Positions 3,381-62,915 of a stretch of 64,000 nucleotides of DNA are shown here, one piece after another. A model generated the notes under the pieces. That model was given only the letters and a program-made list of their open reading frames with translations, was not told where the DNA came from and made no database searches. The stretch is from Fasciolopsis buskii. Taxonomy: Eukaryota > Platyhelminthes > Trematoda > Plagiorchiida > Fasciolidae. Made by a program: the position numbers and the translations under genes. Location of the stretch: assembly GCA_008360955.1 (NCBI GenBank), contig LUCM01003854.1, positions 1-64,000 on the forward strand, given 5' to 3'. The stretch's first letter is position 1, and every line of letters starts with the position of its first letter.

Positions 3381-3599
3381 CGTTCAGCGTTAAACAGCAA
3401 TGCAAGTCTCATTGACCGTTGCCTTTCCCCAGAGTTAAACGTTTGTATAAAAAGACTGAATATCCAATGGGAACAGGGAGTGGACCTACAAAGGCGGGAA
3501 AAGATAAGATGCTGCTGCAGCCAACACACGGAACACAGCCTAACTGTACAAACGCACGTGTTTTCAATCATTCTGATTCGATAGAAAATGACAGCACGA

Positions 3600-4205
3600 T
3601 CACCACTGTTCACGGTTCACTGCCATATCCTTCAGTGTCTCCAGCCAGCAAGTCGACGAATCTTTCGCACCCCAACCACGAAGACGAAAACGTGAAACAC
3701 TTACTTTACCTGAATCCGCTATGCAATTTCTCGTCCCACGTTGCCAGGTCATCTGTTGGCTTCCACATGGCTTCTTCCATTCCTTGGGAGAAAAACACAA
3801 AATAGGGCACGGTATGGTAGACGAGTGTTCGCCATAAACAAAACGTGACCCACCCACAGTGGTCTACTAGGTCACAGCCTCCTTCTGTCTCCTCCTAAGG
3901 CCTTTTCCATCGCCTCGTCCATGATGAGGTTGATTAAGAATAGAGAGATGGGACACCATTGTCGGAAGCCGCTAGTCGTTTCGAATGAACTTGGTAGATC
4001 ACCGTATACCCTCACGCGACCGTAGGTATGTGAGTGTAATGCTCGCAACAGGTTCACAGACGTGAATCTTGTAGTAGTGTCATTTAATCGCTCCTCCACA
4101 GAGCCGGACGTAGAGTCGTGCTCCGTGACATTTGGGACGTAGGGTGTGTGCCGTTATGCGACGAGTCGTTTGTGTTACACATCTTTAAGAAGACACTGGT
4201 TGTAG
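3600..4205 (-). mobile_element. LINE-A copy 1: RTE-like non-LTR retrotransposon, internally deleted
   Basis: On the minus strand, 4099 down to 3872 encodes a reverse transcriptase piece: LLRALHSHTYGRVRVYGDL, then SFETTSGFRQWCPISLFLIN and MDEAMEKALG. These match RT blocks 3-4 (the usual GVRQGCPLSPFLFN). Only a few bases later, at about 3857-3600, comes the C-terminal end of the same family: VGHVLFMANTRLPYRALF, then KEWKKPCGSQQMTWQRGTRN and GWGAKDSSTCWLETLKDMAV. The catalytic YADD block and roughly 900 bases between are missing, so this copy has a large internal deletion plus a frameshift. It lies antisense in intron 2 of the GW182-like gene. Further sequence 3' of the LINE (about 3487-3600) resembles the region after copy 3 at 29925-30000. 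Confidence 0.8.
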
Positions 4206-14968: not shown

Positions 14969-15148
14969 GGCCGACGGTAGCCAAGCGGCTGAGGTCGTGG
15001 TGTTTGGACCTAAAGGTCGCGGGTTCGAGTCTTCCAACCGCCGGTCAACTTCCCCACTTGGCATCCCTTTGTTGGCCGCGGCCCTCTTCTTGAAAAATGA
15101 TGTTCATTGTTGTTTCATTATTAAATGAAGTAAATGACAAAGATAGAA
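14969..15148 (+). mobile_element. SINE-1 copy A, tRNA-derived, nested in LINE-B
   Basis: The head has box A (GGTAGCCAAGCGGCTGAGG) and box B (GGTTCGAGTCT), with closing arms GACGG and CCGCCGGTC, like a class II (Leu/Ser-type) tRNA. The body follows: CAACTTCCCCACTTGGCA, a GGCCGCGGCC segment, then a TGATGTTCATTGTTG and ATTAAATGAAGTAAATGAC tail. The same order recurs in five other copies in the window. It sits inside the 3' UTR of LINE-B, so it inserted after that LINE. Confidence 0.8.
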
Positions 15149-17109: not shown

Positions 17110-18010
17110 GAAGACAGTGGAGTTCAATCACTGAAAATTTTCTCATCTTCTGCTCTCAGCGACCGCGTTTCGGAACCGCAGGGCAATGCCAAGCTCACTG
17201 ATGTCGTGTGTACACTGGAGTCTTGATCGACAAACAAATGCCATAACGAACCCACGGATGTCTCCAATAAACAAATGTGAATCAGGCCTTTTGTAAACGC
17301 GAACATGATGGCCAAGTGAGGTACAACTGCACATGTAACTAAATACGTCCACCTCAATTAGTTGCTCCATTGCAAGACCAAGTTTCGGCTTTGAGTCAAT
17401 CCAGTCCTACAAAAACACCTCACAAGTTCAAGGTGCAAAACACATTCCAAACAGACACAGTCCCGTTCAGACAATCGAGAATAATCTACAACTTACTTGG
17501 GTCTTCACTCAGTAGTACAACTTCTTCCGCATATTCAGGAACACCCAGCTGGTAGTTTGAGGAAATATCAATGTCACTAAACTCAAATGAGGATAGGGCT
17601 ATGTTCACAATCAACCCAATGATAAACTGAAAAGAAATGGTGAACGTGGGCAACCCTGGCGAACACCACTTCTCGTCGTAGTGAACTGAAGTGAAACATC
17701 GTTGTAAGCATAAACCCCGAATTTCACTGTTCGCATGCACAGATTGGATGAGTGAAATGAATTTCTCTAGAACACACGTCAGTTAGAGTGAGTGCAAAAG
17801 AATCGCACGATCGACTAAATCGAACTCCGTTTTCAAAATCGTAGTTCCACGGACCATGTGCCTATTTCCGAAGATTTGTTGCAAAATGGAATTGTTTGCA
17901 ATCCAGTGGAAACCGGCTTGGTTCACACGTCTATAACCTTCGCAAGTACTAGATGAACGGCGGTGGTTAATGTCCCAAAGCACGAGCGTTCGAAACCGGA
18001 TTGCTGGACT
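17110..18010 (-). mobile_element. LINE-A copy 2: RTE-like reverse transcriptase fragment
   Basis: On the minus strand, from high to low coordinates: QAGFHWIANNSILQQIFGNR and FDLVDRAILL (RT finger and palm, family form QAGFRPGRGCIDQIF and FDSVDRA); KWCSPGLPTFTISFQFIIGL (block 4); YAEEVVLLSEDPSKL at 17486-17560 (the catalytic YADD block altered to YAEE); then a LAMEQLIEVDVFSYM segment (family AGEQLGEVDRFSYL) and a piece near 17130-17170 matching the ESRR/RAED segment before the C terminus. Stops and frameshifts interrupt it. It is closely related to the copy at 32040-33150, with much higher identity in the middle than at the edges. Confidence 0.8.
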
Positions 18011-18562: not shown

Positions 18563-20464
18563 AAAGTTGTATCTTTTTTGTATCACGTGGCTTGCGCATA
18601 GACTTATCCCATATTAGCTCTCGAATCTGGGTACTCTTCAAGCTACAGGGCACTACTCCAACCTCTTTAGCTTGTATTGTTAGATGTATGAAACTGAAGA
18701 CCTAATGTTAGTTTGTACACCAGGGAAACCAAACTAACATGCAAACAATAACCAGATTTTACCTGGTCCATCTGATCAAGGTGCTTCAGTCAGCTTCTCG
18801 TGTCTGGCTAACGCCCCACTAATCGAGTAAGTCACAGGCTTCGACTAAGGTTCCCAAGGAAACCACTTATTTGTGGTGTGAATAGCAGCAACCTACCGTT
18901 TGTCCAAATATGTCACCACTCAATCCGGTGATGATCCTGCTGATATACCTTATTTTTTCATGGAGTCGTGAGATGTGTCACGAATGGTTGCTGCTCTGCT
19001 GATGTAGGACTGGGTGAAGCGGGTGATCTAAATCAAAGGCAGTGCCCAATTGCAAATTTTTACTTAGCCTGACCAACAAACAATGACTTCGATCGATTAA
19101 GCTCATGACCGCTTCTGCATGAAGTGAATGCTAACGAAAGTCCCGTCTGGAGTAAGCATTAACGAAGTGTGTTTGGTGTATAACTATTGAAAATCGATCA
19201 CCTGACCTGGTCAACTTATTTTTAGGTCAAATGTGATTGTCGACGACGCGTGTGCATGTACCTTAGAGTTCCGCGATGACAAGAATAGTGTAGTTAGATG
19301 CAGGTTAACTGTGAGCGGTTTTTGTGGAGAGGGTGTGGTTGACGATAATATGAGCCTGGAGATTCTGGACTGATCTGGTCTTACCTTTGTTAAACGCAGT
19401 TACTGGACCGATGGTACCCGGAAAACCATGAATCTGTATATCATTCATTCTTAGTATCATGGTATGGATATAGTCCCATGATCATTTCGATAGATAAACG
19501 TGGTTATACAAATCAAAGTTGAGTTGGTCATTTACTTGTGTTTCCTGTTTGAGAAAAGTCATGTAGTTCCATTGTAAACAACACTTCGGGAACTTCGAAG
19601 TTCTGTATGAAAAGTCCACGCCCAAATCACATGGCACACCTTTGCGCTATCCTGCATAGACAAATAGCCAATCAGAACTGTGACAGCAGGGTACCGTGGA
19701 TTCAAAATTGCCTCAGATGCTATTAGATCGTATGCACCCGACCACTCTGGATTTCTCCTAACGTGTTTTCTAACGGTTGTGGTCTTCTCACCATTTTCAG
19801 TCGCCTGACTTGGTTCGGAGCTAGTCCAGTGCTCGTTAGTAATCCGTATGTGTGTGTTCCTGTGAGTGGCTGCATTTCGTGGTACATTTTTTTGATAAAA
19901 AGTCATATGTATAGCAGGACTCTCCTGAGTAACAATCAAGTTCACGTTTCCTTGAAAACAGTTTCTACGATCTGTGTGTTCCAACTCAATTTCAATCGGA
20001 AAGCACATCGAGAACAACAATTAAGGTTTCATTTAACGTTATTGTTTACCAGTTTATTTGAATTCTAACCAATGCATGAATCAGTCCGTTTCGATTCATT
20101 TTGTTTCAACTTTTTACTCATTTTGTTTGTCATTATTAGTGTACCTTATTTCGGGAGGAGTATTCAACCACTGAAGGCCTTTCGACTGAGGTGGAGTAGC
20201 TTGAACTGGGGACCTATTGGTCGGAGTTCGCGAAAGAAGACCGATCAGTCGAGTGGGAGATGTGATATTCCCAATCTGTTATTGCGGACAATCACTTACG
20301 GCGAAACAACATTACACTGACTCCATGGTTTTTTATACTGGGATGCGTGCCGCGATCGTCTTGTCACTTTCTCTTCTTTGAAAATTACCACTGAGCACAT
20401 TGAGAAAACACAAGTTGGCGAACAAGCTCGTTTTCAGTGATTCGTACTCATGCCATTACATTAC

Positions 20465-25079: not shown

Positions 25080-27950
25080 TTACTTTTGTTCAAAAACCGT
25101 ACCATTTCTCAACATATATTGGAATTCCATGTTTGCGCACCTAAACGAGGTTCTAATCGATCTAAAAGAGACGCTCGTGCTGGCTGCAAGACAGCTCTTA
25201 AATGCATCCTTCATACCAAGATGTCCATTCCGGCATTGTTGAGTACCAACATCCGCTCTTTACGAAAATATCAAATCTGTCCCTCACACGTCAATCACCG
25301 ATTCATGTTCACATGTGCGTCATCCGCATGTATGAATCGCGGCTGAACCCGGATATCGCTGATTCACTCCTGTCGATGGACAGCTTCAGATTCCATCGGC
25401 AAGACAGCGTTTCGGACAAGAAGACTGAGGGCGGTGTGGCAATATGCATAAACTCCTGGTCTGGCAAGTCCGAAGTTGCTTATACGTACTCACTAAACGG
25501 AATTGATTGTCTCTTGATGCACTGTCATACTACGTCTTCTCGCCAAGCCGGTATAATCATAACGAGCCCCTTTTAGCTCGCAACAAAATATCGCATATTT
25601 TTTTACTCGTTTCTAGTATTTACTGTTCCTCTTCTTGAGGACAGTCTGCATATTATTGTGAGTGATTTCAATCATACATCTACCCTACCAATGACTGTGT
25701 TTCATTTGATTGATCTCTGCGTTTCTGCCATCAGAGGCGGTTTCATTTCAGATAGAGTTATTACTAACCACCCCGATTTATTTGCCCTGGAACTGCGTGC
25801 TCCTATTTCAAGTAGCGATCATTGTTTACTTCTGGTAAGGCCCAAGATATACTCTAGGTCAAATTTTCATTCCCTCAGGGGAAACAAATCAAACTCAAGT
25901 TCGCCTCCGTAACTTTTCACACAACAACCTTACACTTCTTCAAAAATTCCTCCTACAAGCAGCTGCTTGTTTCTGTTTTTAACCCGTGCTCAGTGACAAT
26001 GTCAGACGTTTCACAGTGACGGCCAACGCAATCTTTGGTATCTGCTGTCCCATAGAAACAGTACGCGTCTCAAATGGCCTTATCTCCACTCAGAAACTGA
26101 AATCTCTAAGAATGCGCAAGGAGCTCTTCTACAGATTTCGTGATAACTCAAAGCTGAAATCCAAAGCATCGACATGACATTCGCCAGCCAACTCTTGAGT
26201 GGCAACAATCATCGACTCCTATGGCAAGGCATTCGACTGTTGTGTGGGAGGAAGAAGCAGCCCACGAAAACTTCTGCGGTTGTCGACAGCATCAATCGTG
26301 CTTTCATCCATTCTTCCACTTATACCCCGGTCATATTTGGTCTGGGTGATGATACGACATTTACAAGTTTTTCTAGGAAAGAGGTGCTCAATCTTCTCCA
26401 AACCACTAAATTTACCAAAGGGGGCGGTCCTGATGGTCTGTCCTCGGCTCTTTTAAGGTATGGCGCTACGGCTCTGATGGATGCATTTACTTCCTTAATT
26501 AACTCATCAATAATCTCACCTTCCACCCCTGACTGTTGGAGATCCGTCACTGTTATTTCCATCCCTAAATCTAGCAGTTCTATTGCTTTGGCAACACGTT
26601 TTCGCCCCATCGACTTAATGTCTTCTGGTTTTCAACCGACGGAGCGTGCTATACTTTAGCGCCTGCGTATTGCCATGTATCGTCCTGATGATCCATTTCA
26701 GTTTGCCTATAAATCTAACAGGTCCACTTTGGAGGCGGTCACCTCCTTCATTCATCACATTTGTAAGTCCTTAAATGCATCAATGAAATCCGTGTGTTGC
26801 GGCTTTCTAGACTATTCACGGGCACTTGATTCGGTCCCACTATCTCTTCTATTCCACAAACTGGAAACATTTGGTTGTCCCAGTTCTTTATTAGCATGGC
26901 CGAACCCAGTTCACACGAATGGACGGTAAAACTTCAAAACCGTTGATTAACAGCTCAGGCGTGCCACAGGGTGTTGTTCTTCCACCGTTTCTCTTCTCCA
27001 CTTACATCAGCAACTTGTCAACCAGCTCGCCGTGTCATCTGTTTAAGTGTGCTGTTGATGTTGCTCTCTCTCAGTGCGTTTCGAACAACGGTGATTTTCA
27101 AAGGTTTCCGATAAACTATCTTCTGTTTACGATTTCTCTGCACGAGCTGGTTTAAACACACATCTAAATGATTCTAATTTCTGTTCTTTCTCCACATCTC
27201 TCGGTCGGCCTATCCATCCGAAATATCTTTCATCAACTCAAAAACACTTGCCACGGTTGATTCTGCGAAATATCTAGGACTTATTATTGCTAGGCTTCTG
27301 AAATGCATTTCTCACATTTCTGTCTGTGTATAGAATCTCCGGCTATTGTCATTTTAAATCAGAGAGCTTCAACACTACAAGGTGAAACAAAGCATCACCT
27401 CCCGGTTTATATACCAATTTGTTTTTTTAATCCTTCTTTACTGTTCTCCTGTTCCTTACCCAGGGTTACTTAAAAAAGGACTTAAGATTCTTCACCGGAG
27501 ACTATCGATTATTAGCCATGTGTCCTTCATACCACTAACTGAATTGTCCCTTAATCCATGTGACCAAAACTTATTAGCATGTGAGAAATTTGCTCATAAA
27601 ATTCTTTCTGATCCCACGCATCCGCTGCACAACGATCTTTCAAAGTGTTACTCTCGTATTTCTACACGATCCGCCTTTCGTTCTATATCCTCCAGAATCA
27701 ATACTTATAAGAACTCCACGGTCCCATATTTGGAATGTATTTTGACAAACCGTGACCTGATTTCAGCTGAACTCCTGAACAACCTGTCATAGTGTGTTGT
27801 GAGCATTCCTGGATTTCCTTTGTATTTTTTTCGCGAGGCGATAAGTGCATCTGTATTCAATTTATTTCCTTCTTATTTTATTTTTACCCTTACATATTTT
27901 GACTGAAATGCGACACAGAATTCTATGCAATACAATGCAATACAAGCTAC
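25080..27950 (+). mobile_element. LINE-B, long decayed copy of a CR1/Jockey-like non-LTR retrotransposon
   Basis: In order: an endonuclease domain (about 25220-25850) with LLSTNIRSLRKY, ESRLNPDIADSLLSMDSFRF, GGVAICINSW and SSSDHCLL (the final S-D-H block); a linker; then the reverse transcriptase. RT pieces are GGGPDGLSSALLRYGA and WRSVTVISIPKSSSS at 26420-26580, RFRPIDLMSSGF, DPFQFAYKSNRSTLEAV at 26690-26740, GFLDYSRALDSVPLSLL, SSGVPQGVVLPPFLFSTYIS at 26950-27010, and CAVDVALSQC at about 27048-27077 (catalytic YADD changed to CAVD). The C terminus (27382-27792) ends LNPCDQNLLACEKFAHKIL...NNLS. A T-rich 3' UTR ends in ATGCAATACA repeats near 27950. Many stops and frameshifts: inactive. The endonuclease is apurinic/apyrimidinic-like and would nick the target for target-primed reverse transcription. 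Confidence 0.85.
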
Positions 27951-29925: not shown

Positions 29926-30033
29926 GAACAGCGACGATCGTGCTATCATTTTCAGAAAGATTGATAGAATGCGAGCTTGTAGGGGTAGAATGCATTTCGT
30001 GTGTTGACTACTACAGTACTGTATAACCACCGC

Positions 30034-30103
30034 GCCCGAACTGGGACGCGAACCCGGGACGAACGATTCTGAGTCGAACGCCTTAGCCATTACGCTACCG
30101 GGC
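30034..30103 (-). tRNA. tRNA-like sequence (pseudo-tRNA or SINE head)
   Basis: On the minus strand the 70 bases start GCCCGGTAGCGTAATGGCTA and end TTCGGGC, so the acceptor arms pair over six positions including one G-T. Box A (TAGCGTAATGG) and box B (GGTTCGCGTCC) are clear. The anticodon arm has only three good pairs and a loop CTCAGAA (CAG, formally Leu), yet there is no long variable arm as a real tRNA-Leu needs. The T stem has a mismatch. I read it as tRNA-derived, not a working tRNA gene. It points towards the 3' end of LINE-A copy 3, so it may be a remnant SINE head. Confidence 0.55.
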
Positions 30104-30233
30104 AGGCTCTGAACGGTTCGTCGAACTTGACCACATGATGATGTTGCACCTATCCGTTACTTATTTGCACGGTTACTGTCCGCTAGCTCACAGCGATCGA
30201 CCCCTAATGATAGATGACTTCTCTGCAGGTGCG

Positions 30234-30292
30234 GTGGATATGCACTGCTGATGATTCCTAACAAGGATGAAGCAGCTGTACAGTGCTTCCAT
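30234..30292 (+). ncRNA. Hammerhead ribozyme, type I (SM-alpha-like), copy 1
   Basis: Core CUGAUGA lies at 30248-30254 and GAA at 30269-30271. Inner stem I GCACUG (30242-30247) pairs perfectly with CAGUGC (30281-30286). Beyond an internal loop, outer stem I GUGGA (30234-30238) pairs with UCCAU (30288-30292). Stem II is UUCC/GGAU with loop UAACAA, three pairs plus a U-U mismatch next to the core. Stem III is minimal: GCA (30272-30274), loop GC, UGU (30277-30279), with a G-U at 15.1/16.1. The cleavage triplet is GUA, so self-cleavage is predicted after A30280. The open end at stem I makes it type I. An asymmetric internal loop in stem I plus a short stem III is the pattern known for retroelement hammerheads. 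Two weak points (the U-U pair and G at 15.1) may reduce activity. Confidence 0.8.
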
Positions 30293-30400
30293 GATTTCTT
30301 TATGGTGAGTTGAGCCATGATATCACATGGTGAATTATTTCATGAAAACATTCAATCTCTTACTTCTAAAATGTACTACAGCATTCTTTTATTTCCCAAC
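30293..30400 (+). repeat. Downstream body of hammerhead element, copy 1
   Basis: This aligns with 60731-60840. Shared features are TTTMTTAATGGT-like starts, GAGCCATGATATCACATGGTG versus GAACAATGATACCATATGATG, then TGAATTATTTCATGAA versus TGAACTATTTAATGAA, then ATTCAATCT. The match shows that the ribozyme belongs to a larger duplicated element. Confidence 0.6.
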
Positions 30401-32039: not shown

Positions 32040-33150
32040 GTCATTAGGTGACCCGCAGAACATTGAACTGATTAGTTCGTTGTATTGTGGACATGCTCAA
32101 AACATGACCAAATAACCACAACATCCGATCCACTCCGGGTCCTATAGATTGAAACCCGTATCTTAGACCCAAAGTCTGAATTCCTCGCAAAAACCTCCTA
32201 CCATATTCTACTGATGCTATGGAGAAAACGGTATTCAAACACTGAAAGTCTTCCAATATTTTCTGCTCTCAGCGACTGCGTTCCAGAGCCACGAAGCAAT
32301 GCAAAGCTCAGTGATGCCGTGTGTATTCTCGCTACCTGATCGACAAGCAGATGTCATAACGAACTCACAAATGTCTCAAATAAGCAAATGTGAATCAGGC
32401 CTTTTGTACGAGCGGACATGTTTCATCCGACACACGACCGATAGTTGAGATACAATTGCGCATGTAACTAAATACGTCCGCCTCAATTAGTTGCTCCATT
32501 GCAAGACCAAGTTTCGGCTTTGAGTCAATCCAGTCCTACAAAAGCACCTCACAAGTTCAAGGTGCAAAACACATTCCAAACAGACACACAGTCCCGTTCA
32601 GACAATCGAGAAAAATCTACAACTTACTTGGGTCTTCACTCAGTAGTACAACTTCTTCCGCATATTCAAGGACACCCAGCTGGTAGTTTGAGGAAATATC
32701 AATGTCACTAAACTCAAATGAGAATAGGGCTATGTTCACAATCAACCCAATGATAAACTGAAAAGAAATGGTGAACGAGGGCAACCCTGACGAACACCAC
32801 TTCTCGTCGCGGTGCGCTGAAGTGAAATATCGTTGCAAGCATAAACCCCAAATTTCACTGTTCGCATACACAGATTGGATGAGTGAAATGAATTTCTGTA
32901 ACACACTTCAGCTGGAGGGAGTTCCAGAAAATCACGCGGTCGACTAAATCGAACTCGACTTTCGAATCAACGAAGACAGAAATCGTGGTTCTACAGAACA
33001 TGCGCCTATCTTCAGAGATTTATCTAAAAATGGAAATGCGATCAATGCAATCCTGACCGGGGCAAGAGCCGGTTTCGTTCTCACGCGGGCGCTACATATC
33101 TGGAGGAGGATAACGGCCGCAAGGAGTTTGCATGTGATAATTACCAAGCT
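32040..33150 (-). mobile_element. LINE-A copy 4: RTE-like reverse transcriptase and C terminus
   Basis: On the minus strand, from 32904 down: KFISLIQSVYANSEIWGLCL (family KFISLIQALYANSRSRVRAY), KWCSSGLPSFTISFQFIIGL, YAEEVVLLSEDPSKL (YADD altered to YAEE as in copy 2), LAMEQLIEADVFSYM, then RLFVFEY-like and MLWLFGHVLSMSTIQRTNQF near 32044-32150 (family RLRWLGHVLRMP). The upstream end near 33040-33150 is too diverged to read. Stops and frameshifts are present. It shares long, nearly identical sequence with copy 2 (32488-32905 against 17338-17757), falling to roughly 80% or less outside. Confidence 0.8.
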
Positions 33151-37717: not shown

Positions 37718-37893
37718 TTTATCGTTTATCTTTTACTTCCTTTATTAATGAAACAACAATTTACATCAATTTTCCGGAAGGAGGCCGCGGCCAGCAGAGG
37801 GCTGCCAAGTGGGGAAGTTGACCGGCGGTAGGAGGATTCGAACCCGCGACCTCTACATGCAAAACATCACCACCGTTATGCTCCCACTACCGA
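37718..37893 (-). mobile_element. SINE-1 copy B
   Basis: Reverse-oriented. The tail (TTACTTCCTTTATTAATGAA), the GGCCGCGGCC body, GCCAAGTGGGGAAGTTGACC, and the T arm GGATTCGAACCCGCGACCT match copy A in order. The box A part (37870-37893) is more degraded. Confidence 0.8.
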
Positions 37894-41340: not shown

Positions 41341-44300
41341 AATTCTGACCTACTGCTGTTGCTGCATACAATCGACCGTTGATCGATTGTTGGCTGTCAC
41401 ATCAACATTACAAATGCCTCCGATTGATTAATGCCAATCAAACCGTCTAAAACCGTGACAAAACTTTATCCAGTATGCAACCACGTTGTAAGGTTTAACC
41501 ACCCGGATACTCAGGCCGAAATAAGGGACCTTATCCTGAGCTTCTAACCGAAGATATCAGCCTAAAAGACAGTGTTATGATTTAACGGTTTGGTCCCGCA
41601 CTGGAAACCGATGATGGCTTGCCCCGTTCACATGCCATTCGGGTGGATCTAACCATCCTGCAAGGTCAGTTGAACCCTACACAGAAGTGCCAATCCTGGA
41701 ATCGTATGATTCACACGTCGCTCATTGCTGGTTTGAAATTAGGGCCTAACCACCTTCCCTGGGTTCACTGCCTGGTGGAGAGCACCGGGCATTCGGCTTC
41801 GCCCTTGTTCTTTTATGAGAACACCTCTGCCACTCCAGGTCAACCGGAATTCATGAACTTCGTCTTCAAATCTTGAGCAGAAGCAAAAAGAAATAAGTCA
41901 AATCTATTCTGAAATATAACTAGGATTTACTTTGCTCGTAGTTTCATTTAGTCTGGGTAATGATTTTCGTTAGTGTGACATTACAATAGTTGGATGTCTA
42001 ACTTTGGGGCTGCAGCGTTTGTCTTTCTCAAACCCGATTTCAGTGGTGACAAATTGCTGAATTTTTTAATGTAAGCATTCTGTTATTCACTGGCATCAAG
42101 AAAAATCTCAATTCCTATCCCCTACGTAGCTGGTGGAGACACGATCCTAATAACTGTCACCAGTCCTTACTAACATTTATTTCGTACCGTATGATACGAA
42201 ATAGTTCATTCAAGGCCTAACTTCAAATATGCTTGAAGCAGATCTGTAGATAGGGAAGGACTGACGTGAAAAAAGTAACCAGTGGAGCGAGTTCGTTACG
42301 TGACTGCATCGCGTTTCCTCATTCCCAAATTCAGTTTGGTTACGTGTCACTACTCTACCAGCACCGCGTTTGTCCATTACGTCTATTTTTAGTCTAGTAC
42401 CCTTTACGTCTGAGGAATATTGGACTGTCTTCAAGGGTGTCAAATGGTTATATGCGTTTCGGGGCGCTGAAAGACGAAGCACATTCCGCGTAGCTGGCTG
42501 CCCAACAAGGGAGACACCATCCACTTTGCCGAATAACGAGTTCCTTTGTTCATCAAAACGAAAGGAAGCTGCCTGTTCACCTTGATGGTTTAATGTTATT
42601 CGGAAGGTGACTTAACCGTGGACCACTTGGTGATGCGATTCAGGTCATTTCGGACAGAATTAGAACATTGTAACTTTAATGAATTATATTAGTCACGCGC
42701 AAAGAAATCAGGTCAGTTTTTCGCTCACCGTTATGACTCAATAAAATAGATCACACAACCAATCCCCGATGGCACGCGAGACGGATTTTATTGTTTTTGA
42801 AACTGCTCTTTCGATTAAATTACTCGTGTAGAAATTTCAGGGCACCTAGTTAGGCTTATACTCGGAAAACGCCGCACCCCAGTTTCGTTCTCGCAAGAGC
42901 ACCTCGGTGTTGTTTATCGATCATTGCGCCCAGGTCCCAAATCCGGGTCTTACACTTGGAGGACGTGTGTGTTACCGTTGTGTTACTAGCTTTCATTCAG
43001 GCTAAACAAAATTACCGAATTGTTTGTTCAGCATTCCATCTCAATGACAATCAGCAGTGCCTGACAACTTCGAGGAAATTACGGCAGATTTTGCACTTAC
43101 TTCAGCCAAATGTCTTTCACTAAGCGATGTCTTCTTCACAGGATGGTGGATATGCTTCGTTGATAAACTCCAATGGGTAACAAAATTCGAGTGTGATACT
43201 TTCCGAGTGTAAGCCCGACCGGACAACCTGAGATTTGCACTTAACAGGTGTAGTCCGAAGAGCAATCAATCAATAAAAACAAAATTCGACGTCGCAAATC
43301 AGAATGCTACATGAGCCGGGAAACGATAACATGGAGTGTATTATTCATTAGGTTTATTTATGGAATAACGAGTTTGAAAATAGTCTATTGGACTGCCATG
43401 AAGGAATGATAATTTGTATGACATAGTGCCACTATTTTCTGGCAAAAATGGGACTTCATCAACAGGTGTACGATATAAAACTGGGCCGCAAATTTTACCC
43501 CGGGACTCGGTGCTTATCCATATCCGAATCGTAGTGAAATATTAGTATTGAAGGAATATTTCATATTGTATTCACTGTTGCGAATTACTTTTTCTAATTC
43601 TAGCACAATAATTGGCAATGTAAACAAAAGTTTGATAACAAAAATGATCACGTGATTACCGATCGATCACATCTGACCACTTTCAATGATGAATAGAATA
43701 GGAACGGTTGGACTGTGGATAGCAATCCTTATCTGGAATGAATGATTATAATGGGTTTTAAATATATTTGTCAGGCTTTGATTTACTGGGTGTTAAATTT
43801 TTTGGTATAACTAATCCCAAACGAACGATCACTGGTTTTATGCATCTCACAACTTAGCACTATTTAGTCAGAAGAAGGCGTGAAACTGTGTGGCTGATCT
43901 ATTCAGGTAGCCATTCCGGTGGTATAATACGGTGGTAACGTGCGTTAAGTCAAGGCTATCGAGTACGACTTTCACGTAAAACGAAAGTAAAGTAATACGA
44001 AAAGTATTGGAAGATCTCAGTGGTTTGAAAGTATGCATTGGTTGTAACTTAGTTCGTTTGGTCATCTTGACGATCTCCTTTTACTGATCATGGTATTTAG
44101 GTTGCCAGGTCAACGATTAGCACTTCAGGTAAACATGCTTATAAACGGAAATACCACACTTTGGCTAAAAGCAAGTTATGTCTGTCATCTGTTCACCAAT
44201 CACGTTGAGAGTTAAGTTGATTGCCAATCGCCATTCATCCCAAATCCGAATCATACTGTACTGTAGTTTCAGTGCGCAAAGTAACCTCTGCTAGGAAATC

Positions 44301-46488: not shown

Positions 46489-46662
46489 GGCCGGTGGTGG
46501 TCAAAATGATAAGGTCGTGGACTTGAAGGTTGCGGATTCGAATCCTTCCACCGCCGATCAACTTCCCCACTTGGCAACCGTCTGTTGGCTGCGGCCCACT
46601 TCCTGAAACTTGATGTACATTGTTGTTCCATTAATAAAAAGGAAGTAAAAGACGAAAGATAT
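46489..46662 (+). mobile_element. SINE-1 copy C, well preserved
   Basis: Head GGCCGGTGGTGGTCAAAATG, box B GGATTCGAATCC and closing CCACCGCC form the tRNA-like part. The body CAACTTCCCCACTTGGCAAC, a GGCTGCGGCC segment, CTTCCTGAAACTTGATGTAC, and the tail ATTAATAAAAAGGAAGTAAA follow. With copies A and D it gives a clear family consensus. Confidence 0.85.
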
Positions 46663-55727: not shown

Positions 55728-55912
55728 TGTCATCTTTCTGTATCTTATACTTCCTTCATTAACGAAATAAAAATGTACATCATTTTTCAGGAAGGGGGTT
55801 GCGGCCAACAGAGGATCGCCAAGTGGGGAAGTTGACTGGCAGTGGACAGATTCGAACCCGCGACCTTCACATCCAAACTCCACGACCTCATCCGTTTGGT
55901 CACCGCCGGTTC
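55728..55912 (-). mobile_element. SINE-1 copy D, well preserved
   Basis: Reverse-oriented. The tail TTCCTTCATTAACGAAATAA, AATGTACATCATTTTTCAGG, GGTTGCGGCCAAC, GCCAAGTGGGGAAGTTGACT, the T arm GATTCGAACCCGCGACCTTC, and GGTCACCGCCGG at the tRNA 5' end are all in the family order. Confidence 0.85.
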
Positions 55913-58960: not shown

Positions 58961-60668
58961 TCTTAGACTTGAGTCTTACCGGACAAAGTGACTGACGAGT
59001 CAGACGTGTTGCTTCTCATAAACCGATTTGAACTGACCAATATATCCACTTTCCTAGTTTCGACCAGTTAAGACGCAAAGAAAACCTGGTTCAGTCTGTC
59101 CAGTCTCATGTCAGACAGATTTTTTCTCGTATGGCAGCATTTCATTTGAATTGGAGTTCATAAAACAAGTACTCCTGACAAATAACAGAAAATCAATAGT
59201 CCTTAAGTATCCATCGCTGAGTGTAAACATATATCCACACGATTCGCCTTTACCGGAGCTTACAGTCTGAATTATGAACACAAAAAACAGGACATGATTT
59301 CCAGAACATTTTCTGCCGTCCAATCATCCGCTCAAGTTACTGGCCTGTTCATTTTCTCCACGAACGAGAAAGTCAAATTGCCAGCCTCCATCTCTTCTGT
59401 GATCATTTAGTTCTTCGTTTGTTCATGTTCGGCAAGTCTTCTGGTCGAGACGCCCAGAAACCCAGGTCAACAAAATCATGGAACACAAACCGGCGTGGTT
59501 AATCATTGAGGAGAGACGGGAAATCTCCAGTGCGAATGTTGTACATTTGGCCGGTACTGATCATCAAATAGGTGGCGACGATTTCGCTAGGGTTTACAGA
59601 GTATCACTGAACCTATCAAAAGCTGTTAGCCTACGTCATCTAACGAGATCAAAAGCCGGAAGCATAAAGTAAAAAACAACTGCAACCACCAGAGACCTGC
59701 AATAATTTTCTTCTGTCTCTCTCCGTCCACATCCATTTTCCAGACCCGTATCCTAGGATATTTCTTTCATTTTTTCAAGCATTTCAATCTTCTGCCGATT
59801 AATCAGTCTGATCATTTGCTTACTCTAACATTATCCTTTACAAATATATATATATATATATGTAAACGAGTTGTCCCACAGAAGGAGTTATCGTGGAACG
59901 AGCCAGTCTTGCTATTGCTTTAGTTGATGTGCTTTCATGGAGATTTCCCATTTCCACCATGACTTATTCTTTGACAAACGTAGATTAAGGTTGGTCAATC
60001 CTTCGTCGAACATTAAATTTATTGGTTCTGAAACCAGAACAGACCCATTCCGCATAATCGGTAATTTGTTTTGCCGTAGTCCCTGTGATTTTCAGTCACC
60101 AGTGATCAAATTTTCCCTACTGACCCGAACAATCGAGTAGATAGATCCAATGGGCAATCGCGTGACAAATTAGACAATAGCCAACGGACCATCGGGTTTG
60201 ATTCGACCCATCTTGTAGTATTATTACCGATCCTTGTCGCCAATGCGCGTAGTGATTCGCAATCTAAATAACCAGCTGAACGGTCAGAACCTCACGAAAA
60301 CCAACGACCCGAGCTGCGGTGACTACAGATTTTTCACATAAGTGAAATAAATTTTCGTATTAATGTGAGTTGTAGGAGATTAGATTTCACGACAGATTAT
60401 TCCCTATACGGTGTCAATACTGAACTCCTTTGGCGTGCCGTGTCTAGAAATGGAGAATAAACTTTCAGTGAGAAGGGAAGTTTGCGAGAACATTCGTACT
60501 TCAGCACTAGCAGGATAGATTTCTTGTTGATCTTCAGCGGAAATCGAATCACTGTGCCATGTTCGATTCATACCTACTATGATCTCATTGTCATCGTGAC
60601 CGACCTGTCCGTCGCCGTACCCAGTGACATTGTCTGTGAAAGTTTAGTTACTAACTGATTCAGGCGAG
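58961..60668. other. Intergenic, no gene seen
   Basis: Short open frames only. Contains the AT microsatellite at 59844-59862. Near 60560 a box B-like TGTTCGATTC precedes the hammerhead copy by about 100 bases. Confidence 0.45.
59844..59862. repeat. (AT)n microsatellite
   Basis: About nine AT units. Confidence 0.9.
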
Positions 60669-60730
60669 GTGGATATGCACTGCTGATGATTCTTAACAAG
60701 GGTGAAATAGCGGTAAAGCGCTTCCATGGT
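60669..60730 (+). ncRNA. Hammerhead ribozyme, copy 2, partly decayed
   Basis: This is collinear with copy 1. It has outer stem I GGUGGA with UCCAUGG, the intact core CUGAUGA at 60683-60689, and GAAA intact at 60704-60707 with the 15.1/16.1 A-U pair and GUA cleavage triplet. Stem II is weak (UUCU/GGGU with UAACAA loop). The inner stem I 3' strand has changed to AAGCGC, which mismatches GCACUG at two positions including the one next to the cleavage site. Probably inactive or very slow. Confidence 0.65.
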
Positions 60731-60840
60731 TTCTTAATGGTCGGTTGAACAATGATACCATATGATGAACTATTTAATGAAGGAAAAATTCAATCTTCTA
60801 CTACTAACACTTACTAGCTAATTCTTTAGTAGACGAAATT
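60731..60840 (+). repeat. Downstream body of hammerhead element, copy 2
   Basis: Homologous to 30293-30400 in the same order and spacing, with small indels (for example GAAGGAAAAATTCAATCT against GAAAACATTCAATCT). Confidence 0.6.
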
Positions 60841-62495: not shown

Positions 62496-62878
62496 TTCGG
62501 TCGTGCGCTTCCGTGGAAATTTTGTTCATCCATCCATATGCCAAACATACTACTGAGAAGAAAAACCCATACTTTCGGGCTTTGTGTCCCCCTTCTGAAG
62601 GTTAGCTTTTCCTGACAGACGAAAATCCATTATTCTTAAATGGACTTATCATCCATTCAAGCTCATAACGATTCAAATAAGATTCTAGTGAGAAACATAA
62701 AGTCGGTTATTTGGTGAGCAAACGTCTATGACTTTCAAGATCCAGTGGAATATTCGGGAATATTACAGAGTCGTTTTGGTTTCAGAAACGACCACTGACA
62801 GCCTTATCAGGTAATCTAGCGTCTAAGGGTTTCGACTCACCGCTGTTCGTCCCTGGTCAGTGTCCCAACATGGGACGC

Positions 62879-62915
62879 GGTGGATATGCACCGTTGATAA
62901 TTCCTAAAGGCAGAC
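62879..62915 (+). repeat. Hammerhead element, copy 3, core destroyed
   Basis: GGTGGATATGCACCGTTGAT and AATTCCTAAAGG align with copy 1 over stem I, core and stem II. The core is now UUGAUAA and the sequence diverges after stem II. Just upstream are a hairpin (GTCCCAACATGGGAC at 62862-62876) and a box B-like GGGTTTCGACTCACC near 62826. Confidence 0.55.

Follow-up and report, generated by a model that had tools for sequence, protein, structure and literature searches.

The window (the whole 64-kb stretch of DNA analyzed here) carries a real hammerhead motif of a known kind, confirmed by architecture and descent, in a slightly damaged copy that sits inside a repeated mobile element. The copy is an insertion with two arms in mirror image (30017-30373), flanked by 8-nt target duplications, and it extends beyond the interval 30234-30292 in which the first-pass annotation had placed the feature. 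We propose, with a probability of about 0.6, that the element is an SM-alpha-like metazoan retrozyme, reverse-transcribed from a circular or multi-unit RNA and primed on both target strands. The insertion, its parts and its relatives in the window are laid out as follows:

30009-30016, strand not assigned: left target-site duplication, TACTACAG, an exact 8-nt match to 30374-30381
30017-30228, minus strand: left arm, inverted, with 5' region and tRNA-like head (blastn to the unit at 30029-30230, 88.6%)
30033-30103, minus strand: tRNA-like head (Pol III type A/B box region; RF00005 25.6 bits, cut-off 29)
30229-30373, plus strand: right arm, with hammerhead and 3' tail (blastn to the unit at 30228-30373, 91.9%)
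30234-30292, plus strand: type I hammerhead, bounded by the outer ends of stem I (from sequence and pairing)
30248-30254, plus strand: CUGAUGA core (from sequence)
30269-30271, plus strand: GAA core (from sequence)
30278-30280, plus strand: GUA triplet (from sequence), with a predicted cut after A30280
30374-30381, strand not assigned: right target-site duplication, TACTACAG, an exact match to 30009-30016
3497-3631, minus strand: paralogous empty site, a related host repeat without the insertion (joined-flank alignment through the junction)
60659-60807, plus strand: older second copy, hammerhead included (80.9% to the unit)
62823-62907, plus strand: third, decayed copy, tRNA-like head into the start of the hammerhead (75.3%)

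Structurally, all the parts of a type I hammerhead follow one another in order on the plus strand at 30234-30292, with the core intact by sequence and pairing, just as the first-pass annotation had read them. Stem II (30256-30258 with 30265-30267, read from the sequence) encloses a 6-nt loop, stem III consists of G30272-U30279 and C30273-G30278, and stem I is divided by an asymmetric 3x1 internal loop into an inner part (30242-30247 with 30281-30286), which, as claimed, pairs perfectly at six of six positions, and an outer part (30234-30238 with 30288-30292), which pairs at five of five, one of them a G-U. The two weak points suspected at the outset are also there, namely a U-U mismatch at positions 10.1/11.1 (U30255/U30268) and G at 15.1, where the pair is G15.1·U16.1. 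The site has the CUGANGA and GAA core, the three stems and the type I order by which a type I hammerhead is recognized. A descriptor written after the site had been seen (core, stem II of at least three pairs, stem III of at least two and stem I of at least six) found this one site in the window, where 400 Markov simulations would predict 0.0075 per 64 kb, and that expectation, together with the large repeat family in the genome, rules out a chance look-alike.

The covariance-model check suggested with the annotation came out mixed. At the Rfam gathering thresholds there was no match anywhere in the 64-kb window, and the window copy is accordingly left outside the Rfam hammerhead families; below the thresholds it matched Hammerhead_HH9 (RF02275) at 23.0 bits against a cut-off of 52, with E 0.0035 on 700 nt and E 0.32 on the whole window. 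HH9 and Hammerhead_1 (RF00163) gave the best Rfam matches for the element's hammerheads, and our own-family model R1 scored the window hammerhead at 101.3 bits, a value that is high by construction. In folding, the minimum-energy structure of a 67-nt monomer of the window copy (−20.3 kcal/mol) is not the hammerhead (−13.4 kcal/mol), and a dimeric hammerhead, with an 8-pair stem III whose strand is largely self-complementary, evaluates at −42.7 against a minimum of −54.6, another fold being preferred.

The outer edge of the left arm is inferred from the target duplication, which scores 8 and so lies below the line of at least 9 used in the duplication counts given further on. This left arm starts within the hammerhead and not in the tail, in which it differs from 29 of the 33 abutting arm pairs mapped in the genome. 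The joined flanks of the insertion align with the empty site at 3497-3631 (BLAST 70.6% over 136 columns, E 1.5e-13), the BLAST alignment reaching 16 nt beyond the junction and a pairwise alignment 57 nt beyond. A decayed hammerhead following the minus-strand head at 30033-30103 was considered and is not supported; the next stretch is host DNA that has a paralogue at the empty site. That the hammerhead lies in a repeat element, as the annotation had it, is borne out within the window by 60661-60827, identical to the window copy in 133 of 167 columns (80%), and by many copies in the genome. Between these two window copies the hammerhead is identical at 52 of 59 positions and the flank at 75 of 100, a difference that is not significant (p 0.064).

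Weak traces that may be further pieces of the element lie at 20282-20334 and 43145-43168. The decayed copies at 62894-62900 and 43160-43166, the latter only a possible copy, both read TTGATAA in place of the core CTGATGA, so that positions 3 and 8, which pair in the folded ribozyme, are altered jointly; this may be chance. The window also holds a long repeat in two same-strand copies about 15.1 kb apart (17145-17837 and 32258-32966, parts of which are 76-97% identical) and another dispersed repeat family (14971-15147, 37725-37863, 46518-46638 and 55733-55909), in both orientations and 80-87% alike.

The window copy belongs to a large repeat family in its own genome, whose assembly (703,196,239 bases in 6,974 contigs) we searched twice. 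An 82-nt query gave 1,422 first-look candidates, and among the 40 that were scored there were 41 matches at 97-100% identity, one of only 32 nt; a second search, with a 5' region query that lacked the hammerhead, scored 40 of 1,583 candidates. RF00163 run over the genome gave 8 matches (73 scored of 111,921 candidates) and none in any of 14 control genomes. Seven copies of the same family fell just short of its cut-off of 34, six at 33.8-33.9 bits and one at 33.0, and the sole match above the cut-off among the scored candidates was locus L010 (35.4 bits), which has a different sequence. This other hammerhead of the same genome (L010:1501-1545) pairs G10.1 with C11.1, and its stem III strand is self-complementary. 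Scans for viruses found none, and there was one bacterial pattern match, at locus L001. Protein searches returned no relatives.

The unit of the element is about 391-404 nt long and runs in the order hammerhead, tail, 5' region, tRNA-like head; for mapping we used a 391-nt unit with the hammerhead at u1-62, the predicted cut after u48 and the head from about u317. At four tandem loci the hammerheads are spaced by 385 nt (L013, shortened by assembly N) or 397-404 nt (L040, L042 and L048). The head contains A- and B-box-like stretches and approaches the tRNA model (RF00005, 25.6 bits for the window copy and 28.6 bits for L018, cut-off 29), and ARAGORN called no tRNA in the heads. In the genome copies the head stands upstream of the hammerhead and runs straight into it, which upholds the earlier comparison with retroelement hammerheads such as SM-alpha as far as layout goes.

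How these elements entered the genome was read from two sets of loci, with arm ends taken as BLAST ends and arms called abutting at a gap of 10 nt or less. Set 1 (34 loci, 60 arms) was collected through the hammerhead, by resemblance to that of the window or with RF00163, a choice that biases its hammerhead states; set 2 (27 loci, 49 arms) was collected through the 5' region, which skews its arm lengths towards higher values. L001, L010 and L024 were left out of the mapping of set 1, and L046, L049 and L065, duplicates of other loci's places, out of set 2. Abutting arms in the order minus-plus, with their 5' sides inward, occur at 33 of the 61 mapped loci (21 of 34 in set 1, 12 of 27 in set 2); the opposite order, plus-minus, occurs at none of the 61, and 28 are without abutting mirror arms. 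The RNA 3' ends cluster in the tail zone u100-165 (49 of 60 arms in set 1, 38 of 49 in set 2), and the RNA 5' ends, in the mapping of set 1, are scattered over the whole unit. Of the outer ends of the 33 abutting pairs, 29 on the left and 28 on the right fall in this zone, and 26 pairs have both there.

Target duplications scoring at least 9 were found at 17 of 39 insertions in set 1 (with boundaries from an earlier, N-containing unit reference, and L024 counted) against 6 of 234 swapped controls, and at 12 of 35 in set 2 against 6 of 175; some of these 29 scoring matches are not real, that at L059 being element sequence. Of the 33 abutting pairs, 19 are enclosed as a whole by a single such duplication and 14 are without one. 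Exact duplications of at least 11 nt number 16 (with L007, a single arm, and L024 included), 15 of them 11-14 nt long and one 18 nt, and all 16 taken together start A-rich and hence end T-rich, which is one statement and not two because ends were counted together with their reverse complements. At the joins, the two arms overlap by a mean of 2.4 nt against 0.67 by chance (17 joins), and in the later mapping 12 of 21 joins in set 1 and 7 of 12 in set 2 overlap by at least 2 nt, against 15% by chance. Since the junction points vary between loci, the mirror pairs look as if they were made at insertion and not copied as a ready palindrome.

The arms also speak to the RNA template. Of the tail-zone arms, 45 of 49 in set 1 and all 38 in set 2 pass the hammerhead cut site, and none of these ends within 3 nt of the predicted cut (0 of 45 and 0 of 38); for these arms the template was therefore not a linear monomer cut at the hammerhead, which leaves an uncut, circular or multi-unit RNA. 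Many zone arms continue past the tRNA-like head by more than 15 nt on its upstream side (26 of 49 in set 1, 32 of 38 in set 2), some exceed 391 nt (6 of 49 and 21 of 38) and some even 404 nt (6 of 49 and 16 of 38), and at L048 arms of 853 and 1,150 nt lie inside one 17-nt duplication with one mismatch. Arms longer than the unit imply, for the longest of them, a circular or multi-unit template. Between these two, multi-unit linear transcripts of tandem arrays such as those at L013, L040, L042 and L048 would account for the long arms without circles, the hammerhead trimming them or lying idle, and in the published case of a Penelope-like element (PLE) unprocessed RNA is described as the main substrate (the sections of PMC11167929 used here). 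Published metazoan retrozymes were nevertheless found as circles (PMC7229834, likewise in the sections used), and we put this account, which overlaps with our preferred reading as a narrower form of it, at a little less than an even chance.

The state of the ribozyme was tallied over 101 complete copies (52 in set 1, among them L024, a near-copy of the L023 pair, and 49 in set 2), with 7 and 5 partial hammerheads, respectively, set aside. Among the complete copies, 48 of 52 and 38 of 49 retain an intact core. Natural hammerheads usually have a G10.1-C11.1 pair, and the 10.1-11.1 pair matters for the ribozyme; here, G10.1-C11.1 occurs in none of the 101 complete copies, the positions being U/U in 45 of 52 and 46 of 49 and G/U in 6 and 0. 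As near-identical, hence probably young, copies carry U/U, recent source elements are suggested to have had it too. A15.1-U16.1 is the family norm, and the G15.1 of the window copy is found in 8 of 52 and 1 of 49. A G5-to-C core variant is present in 5 of the 49 complete copies of set 2, and the exact string CTCATGA is common to three separate loci (L039, L043 and L061), which suggests that a broken core may not have kept a copy from being duplicated; with G10.1-C11.1 in none of 101 copies and the variant recurring, cleavage may not be needed. Judged from these sequences, the family hammerhead would either tolerate U/U, perhaps as a dimer, or belong to an element for which cleavage is dispensable. 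Activity is tied, in the parts of PMC8490949 consulted, to an intact CUGANGA, GAAA and three-stem junction; the window copy reads GAAG at the GAAA position, and its self-cleavage appears doubtful.

If the element were a plain tRNA-derived SINE whose hammerhead is dead and which a LINE mobilizes, the tRNA-like head and the lack of G10.1-C11.1 in all 101 complete copies would be accounted for, and the window does hold a reverse transcriptase fragment (26660-26926, RVT_1 E 4.2e-8) that is probably a LINE-type remnant; the mirror arms would then be products of twin priming, as in L1, on a single linear RNA. Such priming, however, should leave a tail at only one outer end, whereas 26 of the 33 abutting pairs have a tail-zone end on either side; the listed boundaries show neither poly-A nor a simple-repeat tail, and the arms take in sequence beyond the head on its upstream side and can be longer than a single unit. 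We consider this account unlikely. Far less probable still is that the mirror pairs are independent side-by-side insertions or the product of later inversions: some loci do hold separate insertions, as far pairs, but the single duplication around 19 of 33 pairs, the 33 minus-plus against 0 plus-minus joins and the excess over chance of bases common to the joins all argue against it. Finally, a chance hammerhead look-alike in a coding exon is scarcely credible, for the 25-codon open frame at 30230-30304, although it lies between AG and GTGAGT and is also open in the 60665 copy, differs from the latter at 8 of 25 residues, has no Pfam or PDB match, and is contradicted by homology to the 60661 copy that extends beyond the "donor" and by genome copies whose tRNA-like head crosses the "acceptor" into the hammerhead.

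Mechanistically, we return to a retrozyme primed on both target strands. The unit of about 391-404 nt would act as a circular or multi-unit RNA, on which reverse transcription would begin internally, some 50-115 nt to the 3' side of the predicted cut, primed, we infer, by the T-rich 3' ends of both strands of a staggered cut. Two cDNA arms would run back across the hammerhead, sometimes for more than one turn of the unit, and would meet at points that vary between insertions, sharing a few bases there, to form a mirror-image insertion that often leaves an 11-14-nt target duplication. The window copy is best explained as one such mirror-image insertion with a degraded hammerhead. More tentatively, and with the odds somewhat against it, the hammerhead retrozyme might ride Penelope-like machinery, with RNA circles copied from the two 3' ends that a staggered cut, of AAA-N6-7-TTT type, exposes, sometimes over several turns, and the mirror-image multimer arms might be genomic fossils of two-strand priming. 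The sole PLE-like trace that we met is an open frame at L069:1387-1830 with a GIY-YIG domain fragment (E 1.8e-6), which on a reading of its letters resembles a Penelope-like endonuclease; the L069 locus has no match to the element unit, and the sequence upstream of this frame contains no further same-strand frame of at least 100 amino acids.

From an evolutionary perspective, the mirror-image arms bear on the question of how animal hammerhead retrozymes re-enter the genome. Where one duplication encloses mirror arms with both RNA tails outward, two-strand insertion primed from within the RNA can be read off the genome, and since this signature can be tallied wherever such elements occur, the question becomes directly testable. 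If true, the Penelope-like reading would tell who moves animal retrozymes, and a hammerhead family that kept amplifying without the usual 10.1-11.1 pair raises the question of whether its ribozyme is tolerant or dispensable. A full-text literature search, covering mainly papers outside subscription, returned no report that we recognized of mirror-image insertions for hammerhead elements, and the insertion mode of the element is informative and, within that search, without an earlier description.

Among known systems, the schistosome elements SM-alpha and Sj-alpha combine Pol III boxes with a type I hammerhead, and share with our element a tRNA-like head upstream of it, a very short stem III, a high copy number and a SINE-like character (the portions of PMC2770079, PMC2576457 and PMC8490949 drawn on here); mirror-arm insertions are not mentioned for them in those portions of the three papers. 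Unlike SM-alpha, the element has mostly U/U at 10.1/11.1, with G/U in six copies, and the likeness is one of layout, by description. Metazoan non-LTR retrozymes, in the sections of PMC7229834 available to us, consist of tandem units of 150-450 bp that each contain a type I hammerhead, occur as dimers to multimers, yield linear and circular RNAs of ~170-400 nt, leave duplications of more than 4 bp and are reported from platyhelminths too; their driver is given there as not known, LINEs or PLEs being proposed and PLEs a strong candidate. The hammerhead spacings of 385 nt (L013) and 397-404 nt (L040, L042 and L048) fall within that unit range, and the 16 exact duplications, of 11-14 nt or 18, exceed 4 bp. 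Retrozymes of this kind have no LTR, PBS, PPT or ORF, and none of these was noticed in the unit of our element. The tRNA-like head, the off-consensus hammerhead and the mirror-image insertions set the element apart from published metazoan retrozymes, and the word "inverted" has 0 occurrences in the available text of that paper (PMC7229834). The Penelope-like PAc enzyme, according to the accessible parts of PMC11167929, cuts and extends both target strands in vitro and starts reverse transcription internally; PAc and our element are alike in the cutting and extension of both strands, the internal start, AT-rich targets, a hammerhead nearby and, it seems, the sufficiency of unprocessed RNA, and differ in that PAc is itself autonomous and carries an ORF, whereas our unit showed no sign of coding capacity. 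In the features compared, the element matches the retrozyme kind, and its mirror-image insertions agree with a Penelope-like mode.
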